Source of the DNA: Levilactobacillus parabrevis ATCC 53295 | GTDB lineage: Bacteria; Bacillota; Bacilli; Lactobacillales; Lactobacillaceae | NCBI RefSeq assembly: GCF_001434055.1 | Contig: NZ_AZCZ01000008.1 | Span: forward strand, 1-64,000 | Reading direction: 5' to 3' | DNA: 64,000 nt | Shown here: positions 14,470 through 61,377 of the stretch, piece after piece | Layout of the letters: each line of letters opens with the position of its first letter | How positions within the stretch are numbered: the first letter of the stretch is position 1 | Program-made: the position numbers and the translations under genes | The notes under the pieces: generated by a model | The model's database searches: none | Told to the model about the DNA's origin: nothing | Seen by the model: only the letters and a program-made list of their open reading frames with translations

Positions 14470-15780
14470 TCATCCTTCCATTAAGAGCATTTCTGGATCA
14501 TGAAGCAATGCTTTCAGTTCATTTAAGATATTTTGAGCTAAGGCCCCGTCAATCAAACGGTGGTCGTAACTCATGGAGAGCTTCAACATCCGGCCAACAA
14601 CGATGTCGCCATCTTCATTGACGTAAGGTGCCTTTTCAATCCGGCCAACCCCTAAAATTGCGACTTCAGGTTGGTTGATAACTGGTGTGAACCAGCCACC
14701 ACCGATTGATCCAACGTTACTGATGGTAATGGACCCACCGGCCATGGATGCTGGTGATAACTTGTTGTCGTAGGCGGCTTGTGAGTTTTCACTAATTTCC
14801 TTGGCAATTTCGAACATACCCTTGGAATCCGCGTTCTTGATGTTTGGTACATACAGACCGTGATCCGTGTTGGTAGCGATACCAATATTGTAGTAGTGTT
14901 TCGTCACAATTTCTTGCGTGGTGTCATCGATTGAAGCATTCAGTTCTGGGAAGTCCTTCATAACAGCAACCAAAGCTTTGACAATGTAGGGTAAGAAGGT
15001 CAAATGAATGTCCTTGTCCGCAGCAGCTTGCTTGTACTTCTTCCGGTTAGCCATCAGAGCTGAAACTTCAACTTCATCGAATGACGTAACGTGTGGCGCA
15101 ATATCCTTGGAAGTCCGCATACTCTTAGCAATGATCTTCCGCATTGGTGACATTGGTTCACGCGTTTCCAGTTCAGGCCGGTCGGCGTTCCAAGGCTTGA
15201 TAGCTTGCCCAGTTGCTTTCGCAGCGGCTGGAGCAGCAGGTGCAGCGGCAGCAGCGGGTGCTGGAGCGGCGACGCCATTGAAGTTATCGATATCAGCCTT
15301 CAAGACTTGACCATGGTTCCCAGTTGGGGTGACTTGAGTTATGTCAACGCCTTTGTCGCGGGCATGTTGCCGGACAGATGGCATTGCCATAACCAACTTG
15401 TTAGGATTGGACGCAGCGGGAACGCCAGTTGGTGCAGCGGCAGGTGCCGGTGCAGCAGCTTCAGGTTCGGCAGCGGGTGCTGGGGCAGCTTCTTCAGCCG
15501 GTGCAGCATCCCCACCCTTGCCTAAATCAGGTGGCGTATCGGAGCCGTCATCAATCACGATCAATGGATCGCCGATTTCAACGGTGTCCCCTTCTTGTGC
15601 CACAATCTTTGAAATCGTACCATCAACGGGTGATGGTAATTCCGAAACAGACTTATCGTTTTGGATTTCGACTAATGTGTCGTCTTCCTTGACGGCGTCT
15701 CCTTCTTTAACAAGCCATGAAGAAATTTCGCCTTCGGCCATTCCTTCACCAAGCTCAGGGAGTTTGAACGTATAAGCCAT
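14470..15780 (-). CDS. pdhC: Dihydrolipoamide acetyltransferase (E2)
   Basis: Core subunit of the pyruvate dehydrogenase complex, transferring the acetyl group from lipoate to CoA. The 436-aa protein has a single lipoyl domain (about 1-77, lipoylated lysine in IQNDKSVSE), an Ala/Pro-rich linker (about 92-115), a peripheral-subunit-binding domain ([12 protein letters not shown]...[11 protein letters not shown]), a second Ala/Pro linker, and the catalytic domain ending with [12 protein letters not shown], whose His and Asp are the catalytic motif. There are 8 bases before pdhD. Confidence 0.97.
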
Positions 15781-42145: not shown

Positions 42146-42359
42146 GGGTTAAGCCCTTGGCGCCTTGCCGGGTGGCCCAAATCAACTGGAACGCTGGGGC
42201 GGGCGCCAGAAGCCAAAGAGCGGTCTTCTGACTTGTCTTTGAACCTCTAAAATCGAGTTTCAAAGACACCAATTCTCTAAGCGACCAAAAACGTCGCTAA
42301 GAGAATTCCCACGGCTAAGTTGATTTGGGCCACCCTCACGGCTTACACTGGCTTAACCC
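42146..42359. repeat. Structured interspersed element, family B, copy 1
   Basis: The outer pair is GGGTTAAGCC (42146-42155) / GGCTTAACCC (42350-42359). An inner perfect 16-bp pair is GTGGCCCAAATCAACT (42172-42187) / AGTTGATTTGGGCCAC (42318-42333). Three hairpins lie inside: CCAGAAG/CTTCTG (42206-42230, loop with AGAGCGGT), GTCTTTGAA/TTTCAAAGAC (42235-42267) and a 15-bp stem 42271-42285 / 42293-42307 with loop CAAAAAC. The layout recurs at 60730-60940. It lies in the phosphatase gene leader, 30 bases before the TTG. The remaining 190 bases up to the mnmA terminator show no gene. Confidence 0.8.
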
Positions 42360-42550
42360 GTACCAATTCTTTCTATACCTGTCGTATTCTATCCATCTGC
42401 ACTAGCTACGTTCTACAAAACAACTGTCGCGTTCTATCTCAATAACCTCAATAATACCACGCTAACATGCCCTTCAGAACCCCGTGCAGTCACATCACCT
42501 TATTATGCCAGTTTTCAGGTGATTTTCAAAGAAACAACTGCGGAAATTTC

Positions 42551-60729: not shown

Positions 60730-60940
60730 GGGCACATTGTCGCCTGCGGTTGCCAGAGATTCCGCTTGCTGTGGGGACCGGCAAAAGCCTGAGAAGCGGT
60801 CTTTTGCCTCGACTTTGAGCCGTGAAGTTCACCCGTCTCAAAGCACGTCCCGCGCTGTAGTTTGGCAAAAGAACGCCAAACAACACCGCCGTCACAGCTA
60901 GCTACACCTCTGGCCCCCTCCGGCTAAGCTAATTGTGCCC
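60730..60940. repeat. Structured interspersed element, family B, copy 2
   Basis: The outer pair is GGGCACA (60730-60736) / TGTGCCC (60934-60940). Inner pairs are GCCAGAG (60752-60758) / CTCTGGC (60908-60914) and GCTGTG (60768-60773) / CACAGC (60893-60898). The three internal hairpins are GGCAAAAG/CTTTTGCC (60780-60808, loop with AGAAGCGGT), CTTTGAG/CTCAAAG (60813-60843) and GTTTGGC/GCCAAAC (60860-60881, loop AAAAGAAC). The order, spacing and loops match copy 1, while the stems differ and still pair. It occupies the murD leader. The remaining gap (60941-61377) shows no gene. Confidence 0.8.
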
Positions 60941-61377
60941 AAATTAATCCTAGCAACCTTCATTCAGAGCATTTTACCAGGAGACAATGACTGACTTTAC
61001 TAGCCAACAATCTCATCGAGACACCTATAAAAGATGAGTACCCCAAATTTGGCACTATCTCTAGTTTATCAGGTTCGCTGACTTATCTCACTAAATCTGC
61101 CAAAATCTACAAGAAATCTTCGATATTCAGTGATTTTTAGGGCAATGCTGGCAAATTACCGATGGTTAGCAGTTAATTCCCTGTGAGGATCTCCTAAAAA
61201 GCCGCTGAGCCCGTTCCGGTAAATTCATGGTTAACTGGACCACCATCCCCACTAAGTAGCTGTAGCAAGCCAATATAGCACATACTGTCACCACCAACAC
61301 CATTGTTGAGCAAAGTCAACGAATAGTGTACGGCGTGGGCCCCACTTATCTTGCCTCAGCCAAACCGGCAGTGGACG

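Follow-up and report, generated by a model that had tools for sequence, protein, structure and literature searches.

Bacterial MITEs, of which ERIC, Correia/NEMIS, RUP and BOX are examples, and the REPINs and BIMEs, which are linked with RAYT transposases, are the mobile repeats with which the element reported here is best compared. Like MITEs, the present repeat is short, free of a transposase and found in many intergenic copies, and its preserved units have inverted ends and target duplications. Unlike them, it is built of modules that form branched three-hairpin folds with strong covariation and a wobble bias on one strand, and each unit holds two distinct, divergent subtypes of module. With REPINs and BIMEs it shares inverted pairs of hairpin modules in intergenic DNA; the present modules, however, are about 190 nt long, and the distribution of Y1 transposases differs from that of the repeat. 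A branched, covarying fold is also what the structured RNAs of Rfam display, but no Rfam family matches the element. A further structure for comparison is MRSC-65-2, described as a single long stem with UYCCGG repeats that has representatives from diverse phyla (PMC11109978). It is likewise multi-copy and covarying, with inconsistent orientation to genes, whereas the present repeat has three hairpins inside the stem. The range of the present repeat was followed by model in Lactobacillaceae and by one DNA pattern in all named genomes. In the literature searched, mostly open-access and including PMC11109978, PMC8632094 and PMC2267715, we found no description of this repeat family.

The window, by which we mean the whole stretch of 64,000 nt analysed here from Levilactobacillus parabrevis ATCC 53295 (contig NZ_AZCZ01000008.1), carries two copies of the repeat. 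Both are probably modules that belong to a family of non-autonomous, MITE-like mobile repeats in Lactobacillaceae, to which we would assign them by the homology of the modules. The outermost pairing of copy 1 is limited by about 42146-42359 and encloses a conserved core at 42157-42350. The parts of the two copies are as follows, the RNA strand being the reverse of the window's plus strand:

42157-42350, minus (RNA) strand: conserved core of copy 1, a c1-type module (cmsearch, 210.5 bits with model R1; 38-copy alignments).
42146-42159, no strand assigned: outer closing arm of copy 1 on the RNA 3' side (fold; own versus swapped flank pairing); not conserved between copies.
42351-42362, no strand assigned: outer closing arm of copy 1 on the RNA 5' side (fold; own versus swapped flank pairing).
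42170-42187, minus strand: RNA 3' arm of the long closing stem P1 of copy 1, pairing with 42318-42335 over a perfect 18 bp.
42318-42335, minus strand: RNA 5' arm of P1 of copy 1, pairing with 42170-42187.
42206-42230, minus strand: hairpin 1 of copy 1 (helix 6 of the c1 alignment); its loop region, AGACCGCTCTTTGGCT in the RNA, is conserved, and one A is bulged.
42235-42267, minus strand: hairpin 2 of copy 1 (helix 5; both sides changed in 11 of 13 pairs).
42271-42307, minus strand: hairpin 3 of copy 1 (helix 3; both sides changed in 13 of 14 pairs).
60736-60929, minus (RNA) strand: conserved core of copy 2, a c2-type module (cmsearch, 210.2 bits with model R2; 33-copy alignments).
60730-60736, no strand assigned: outermost arm of copy 2, GGGCACA, pairing with 60934-60940.
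60934-60940, no strand assigned: outermost arm of copy 2, TGTGCCC, pairing with 60730-60736.
60780-60808, minus strand: hairpin 1 of copy 2 (fold; helix 6 of the c2 alignment).
60813-60843, minus strand: hairpin 2 of copy 2 (fold; helix 5 of the c2 alignment).
60860-60881, minus strand: hairpin 3 of copy 2, with an A-rich loop (fold; helix 3 of the c2 alignment).

The three-hairpin stems that an earlier note on this DNA had named in both copies are present in sequence and fold, and the loops are as it described them. The inner pair of copy 1, which it had called perfect over 16 bp, is indeed perfect but extends over 18 bp; both sides have changed in 13 of the 23 pairs of this stem (P1, helix 1) in the 38-sequence alignment. 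When the two copies are aligned with each other, shared blocks are found around hairpin 1. The distance from the end of the core to a minus-strand start codon is about 40 nt for copy 1 and 63 nt for copy 2 if the phosphatase-like frame starts at a TTG and murD at the ATG of MKQITTY; these starts were chosen from the sequence by judgement, and there are also longer open reading frames that start inside the repeats or at their edge. Neither covariance model detects a partner module anywhere in the window.

The alignments strongly support that the three-hairpin fold is real and belongs to one strand. Standard pairs on the RNA strand make up 98.2% of 2598 cells in the c1 alignment and 95.5% of 2058 cells in the c2 alignment, and both sides have changed in 43 of 69 and 41 of 63 pairs, respectively. 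None of 500 shuffles reached any of five measures in the 38-sequence or the 33-sequence alignment, and with slid structures only 32-48% of cells pair. With the RNA-strand consensus, G.U outnumbers A.C by 157 to 16 (c1) and 105 to 23 (c2); with an opposite-strand consensus, A.C on the plus letters is still more frequent than G.U (96 to 45 and 51 to 45). We assign the fold to the window's minus strand on the basis of this wobble excess. When no consensus is used, the minimum energy is lower on the RNA strand for 35 of 38 c1 and 32 of 33 c2 copies, and a lower energy on this strand is also found in a genome of genus g38 (G320; 23 of 30 c1 and 20 of 20 c2 modules) and in a further Levilactobacillus genome (G030; 21 of 25 and 33 of 33). 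In G320, 29 of 30 c1 modules and 3 of 20 c2 modules have a loose form of the hairpin 1 motif; in G030 the respective figures are 23 of 25 and 28 of 33. Both alignments bear out the proposal of an RNA-type fold that is conserved, covarying and strand-specific. The outer arms, for their part, pair only within their own copy and have no strand bias. Next to the core, arms pair with their own partners at a mean of -20.1 and -19.9 kcal/mol, versus -15.0 and -14.3 kcal/mol with swapped flanks, and this excess vanishes 60 nt out. A fold-back origin of the outer arms is one idea that we have entertained; insertion into terminator hairpins is another.

In the window's own genome (G000; 2.61 Mb in 133 contigs), 46 matches are obtained when copy 1 is the query and 44 when copy 2 is; we scored 40 candidates per query, and some of the matches are pieces of one copy. 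Two subfamilies can be distinguished, c1 with copy 1 (38 copies aligned) and c2 with copy 2 (33 aligned, one truncated copy being left out). They are homologous, since each covariance model detects the other subfamily: the c2 model matches copy 1 (window 42156-42347, E 1.5e-18) and the c1 model matches copy 2 (window 60737-60932, E 2.8e-9). Of 35 Levilactobacillus genomes, in which up to 72 (c1) and 73 (c2) candidates were scored per genome, 33 have matches to either model, and the other two (G012 and G024) have zero copies by both. One genome of the genus (G004) has only 5 and 9 copies; the other 32 have at least 9 by the c1 model and at least 29 by the c2 model. The covariance-model search across Lactobacillaceae that had been suggested earlier gave matches in 78 of 301 sampled genomes, belonging to 10 of 40 genera; the filters were stricter here, and 8 candidates were scored in each genome. 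The 40 stretches obtained when named genomes were scanned with a pattern come from Levilactobacillus species, apart from those of one uncultured Lactobacillus bin.

Copy numbers are high in several genomes. In 798 kb of L. fuyuanensis 244-4 (G010) represented by whole pieces, we counted 76 distinct copies (26 c1 and 50 c2), which extrapolates to about 257 copies per 2.7-Mb genome; at this density, modules would occupy nearly 2% of a Levilactobacillus genome. The c2 model matches 136 of the 150 candidates scored in G030, and the c1 model all 150 scored in G320 (3.3 Mb). A third, weakly scoring repeat type, which retains the hairpin 1 loop, lies at about 14476-14680 of a L. fuyuanensis locus (L155) where the window's genome holds a c1 copy (L020, 1291-1485).

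The evidence for mobility comes from related genomes. Thirteen of 20 regions from other genera hold two matches, and these are divergent in all 13. The centre between divergent modules measures 16-25 nt in 7 of 11 listed pairs, all seven from genus g38 and four of these from a single genome; in the remaining four pairs it measures 38-95 nt. In G320, the whole c1/c2 composite is found at 21 of 30 loci, and homology between copies reaches from about -75/-90 to +470/+480. Repeats just outside this inner composite, direct or inverted, were not above control in the 21 copies; the true ends of the units lie further out and are the inverted repeats CTAAAGGTTGAAAG...CTTTCAACCTTTAG. The terminal inverted repeat of 14 bp, CTAAAGGTTG[AC]AAG, is matched in G320 at up to one mismatch 63 times forward and 69 times reverse (132 matches; control 0). 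Both ends bound 19 distinct G320 units of 201-549 bp, of which 15 are at least 522 bp long, and 12 of these 15 measure 541-549 bp. Perfect duplications flank 15 of the 19 units (7 bp in seven, 8 bp in seven and 9 bp in one) and are lacking in the other four, while mismatched-copy controls gave 0 of 342 at each of the three lengths. Neighbouring modules within 500 nt of each other in G030 are divergent in 23 of 25 pairs, 20 of these 23 having centres of 67-105 nt; two units of this genome have the ends, L354 (605 bp) together with a perfect duplication of 8 bp and L364 with an imperfect one. A L. fuyuanensis unit (L168, 3380-4000) has both ends and no visible duplication.

From the inverted ends and target duplications of these preserved units we conclude that the family is MITE-like: the relatives combine terminal inverted repeats and target-site duplication with short length, many copies and no transposase gene. 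The window copies and the other copy loci of the same genome lack the terminal inverted repeats; in 220 kb of such loci, including the window, the inverted ends were not above control (0 and 2 matches, controls 1 and 2). The earlier note had held that copies with target-site duplications and no conserved loops would indicate a miniature transposable element rather than a functional RNA. Target-site duplications were found, in related genomes, yet conserved loops and covariation are present as well, so that the reading as mobile DNA and the reading as a selected fold do not exclude each other here. In the window's genome and L. fuyuanensis, the spacers between paired modules are 100-461 nt long (19 pairs listed) and nearly all mutually unrelated, and no conserved motif above control was detected in the flanks of the copies of either genome. 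Some of these spacers resemble host terminators by eye. In one composite of another genus (L275), a 17-bp inverted repeat, ATGCTTGGTGCTAGTTG / CAACTAGCACCAAGCAT, flanks the modules at about 255-300 and 665-710.

To examine how single sites change between species, we mapped copies of the window's genome into 997 kb of L. fuyuanensis, which was possible for 45 of 72. At 42 of the 45 sites the second genome has a copy in the same orientation that covers more than 120 model positions, and at the remaining three it has a partial or no match. The subtype differs at 8 of the 42 sites, five having changed from c1 to c2-like (one of them to the third type, L020/L155) and three from c2 to c1, although single assignments may be off because the best same-strand match was taken where several copies lie in one segment. 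Core identity in 25 pairs compared in detail is 89-97% in 16 and 71-81% in 9. Low core identity beside flank anchors that are 81-99.5% identical points to wholesale overwriting of some cores. Among the losses observed are internal deletions that spare the outer stem. Nested copies, which lie in what appear to be remnants of other repeats with an old outer stem or one end retained, were seen at L034 557-759, L046 849-1040, L022 1049-1242 and, in L. fuyuanensis, at about 16748-16938 of L165.

Within the 16 conserved pairs, 84 of 2031 paired sites have changed as compared with 88 of 908 unpaired sites (Fisher 1.2e-8), and there are 12 double changes where 1.7 are expected. Single changes keep pairing 38 times and break it 21 times in the core, versus 19 and 33 times in the outer arms (Fisher 0.004), and they give G.U 23 times and A.C 9 times in the core, versus 9 and 20 times in the outer arms (Fisher 0.002); only one sequence of each pair was used to fold the structure, a bias against kept pairs that affects the core as well as the outer arms. 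In the nine replaced pairs, paired sites (264 of 1097) and unpaired sites (107 of 454) differ equally, and double changes number 88 where 30.2 are expected. Some of the double changes could be mimicked by partial gene conversion, which would not, however, explain why paired sites change at a lower rate. Statistically, the core at a given site retains its pairing on the RNA strand between species.

At the two sites of the window, presence varies among species. In the phosphatase-mnmA gap, which holds copy 1, a full copy lies somewhere in 16 of 30 species and 14 have no match; in the murD-mraY gap, which holds copy 2, there is a full copy in 9 of 30, a partial copy in 2 and no match in 19. Copies in other species occupy differing positions within these gaps, which indicates independent placement. 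The murD-mraY gap of L. fuyuanensis has a c2 copy and a divergent c1 module 410 nt away, and the window's genome has c2 only. Between these two modules of L. fuyuanensis lies a block that is found in the window at about 61045-61128, and the same block, 88-95% identical over 83-105 nt, occurs in four genomes (G005, G011, G022 and G028) whose gaps have no repeat match. Because the murD modules flank a block of the host, they were not brought by one compact unit, unless the block moved. This mraY-murD block is about as conserved as the flanking genes and is perhaps a promoter or operator block. By eye, the 5' arm at the murD site resembles an inverted copy of the 3' flank. In the mnmA-phosphatase gap, a segment ACAGTCACATCACCTTATTATGCCAGTTTTCAGGTGATTTTCAAAGAAAC (window about 42487-42550) is common, whole or in part, to most Levilactobacillus species examined, and its distance to the gene differs between species.

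Database searches identified neither a known RNA family nor a partner element. The earlier note knew of no matching family, and Rfam agrees: the window has no match at gathering scores (release 15), and at E up to 1 in ten further loci the repeat itself has none, the three matches outside it being to a TPP riboswitch, V_AS7 and isrN, the latter two below gathering scores. A TPP riboswitch (RF00059) lies near a c1 copy of the window's genome (L009, 289-380). At E up to 1e-8, a Y1 transposase is encoded in both repeat-free Levilactobacillus genomes and absent from the repeat-rich G002, G003, G020 and G029; at the same threshold RVT_1 is found in 10 of 35 genomes, and neither the window's genome nor L. 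fuyuanensis is among them. As these distributions differ from that of the repeat, we dropped Y1 transposase and reverse transcriptase as partners. An autonomous element with the same ends was not found in 2.09 Mb of DNA scanned, nor by eye near G320 ends among the matches listed. There was no match in plasmid records to both window copies and two whole units, in phage records to copy 1, or in viral contigs to one end pattern.

The unit is best preserved in G320 and in some cases in G030; there it is about 520-620 bp long, with terminal inverted repeats of 14 bp. In its middle is a centre of 16-105 nt, which has a c1-type module on one side and, in inverted orientation, a c2-type module on the other; about 60-95 nt separate the c1-type module from one terminal inverted repeat, and a similar stretch separates the c2-type module from the second. 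Insertion of such units duplicated 7-9 bp, and a transposase acting in trans presumably moved them. The covariation shows that each module folds into three hairpins enclosed by a long closing stem, on the strand that leads outwards from the centre. In the window's genome and L. fuyuanensis, modules persist at fixed sites, either singly or in wide divergent pairs, and are often overwritten by another copy or subtype, which may occur by gene conversion or nested insertion. Since the core retains its pairing on the RNA strand, the fold in outward transcripts is probably kept, be it for mobility or because a folded insert least disturbs neighbouring genes. The modules of these two genomes, the window copies among them, may be remnants of compact units or may have been placed individually.

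The position of the copies relative to genes bears on several other explanations. Both window copies lie upstream of same-strand genes, and the earlier note had placed the first in a phosphatase-operon leader; cis-acting leader RNAs, riboswitch-like or protein-binding, would regulate downstream genes such as the phosphatase gene and murD. Of the 71 L. fuyuanensis copies that lie between two genes, 39 have a gene of their own direction on the RNA 3' side, which favours a leader, and 32 have one of the opposite direction, which does not. The energy bias towards the RNA strand is strongest with a same-direction gene (64 of 64), but it persists with an opposite-direction gene (54 of 61). The covarying secondary structure of riboswitches and cis-leaders is present, and a consistent position upstream of one gene class is not, with gene classes annotated at the window sites only. 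The lack of any match in 2 of 35 Levilactobacillus genomes, the gaps of the window that are empty in 14 and 19 of 30 species and the subtype switches at fixed sites also argue against leaders. We dropped the leader or attenuator reading because this gene context is unfit for it, and now consider it very improbable; what survives of the earlier proposal is the RNA fold, not the phosphatase leader. There is similarly little chance that the copies are independent small RNA genes spread by duplication, each with its own promoter. A strand-specific covarying fold that is independent of gene direction would suit such genes, but promoters are not enriched upstream (score of at least 10 in 22 of 141 copies versus 23, 25 and 19 of 141 in three controls), T-runs are not in excess after the 3' end (7 of 141 copies versus 12, 4 and 15), and the centre between divergent modules is only 16-25 nt long in the seven g38 pairs. 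With no enrichment around the 141 copies, an own promoter or terminator was dropped as well.

An element that acts only at the level of DNA, REP/BIME-like or cruciform, could owe its covariation to template-switch repair of long quasi-palindromes. The very long stems, the outer arms that pair just within their own copy without strand bias, the loss by internal deletion and the nested copies are all consistent with this. Mutation alone, however, predicts equal G.U and A.C, which is at odds with the 157 to 16 and 105 to 23 observed, and orthologous changes favour G.U in the core (23 versus 9) but not in the outer arms (9 versus 20). Moreover, divergent modules have opposite RNA strands, so a single DNA strand cannot explain both, and we regard the DNA-only explanation as improbable. 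Finally, the modules may have been placed singly, the RNA 3' end facing the nearest gene, and the host may have kept them as UTR or boundary elements; the compact units with inverted ends in other genomes would then be a later association. We think this unlikely but worth keeping in mind. In 63 of the 71 L. fuyuanensis copies, the RNA 3' end is the one closer to a gene (median 66 nt, against 401 nt for the other end; Wilcoxon 2e-8); 5 of the 71 overlap a frame of at least 100 aa. The murD modules that flank a host block and the persistence with kept pairing point in the same direction. Against it, pairing of c1 with c2 is the rule in compact units of two genera, two Levilactobacillus species have no match, and where modules are paired, their divergence by itself accounts for part of the position rule; among neighbouring L. 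fuyuanensis copies within 1 kb, the RNA 5' ends face each other in 17 of 20 cases.

If the copies are modules of a MITE-like family, as we favour, it is possible, and we suggest it tentatively, that the family represents a new class of mobile element, in which divergent modules each specify a selected structured RNA, a self-spreading RNA module and not an inert DNA repeat. A transcript crossing a pair from either side would then read exactly one module in the folding sense, the modules would lie with the RNA 3' end facing the gene next to them, and hundreds of folds would stay under selection in the genome after insertion. The repeat is abundant in Levilactobacillus and in some genera related to it, yet has no Rfam model or description that we found, and it is a warning to annotators who would name single copies leaders. 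Strong covariation commonly counts as proof of a host RNA; here a repeat of the mobile type bears the same signature and is kept in place between species. Its copies offer hundreds of natural replicates for testing what selects RNA structure in mobile DNA.
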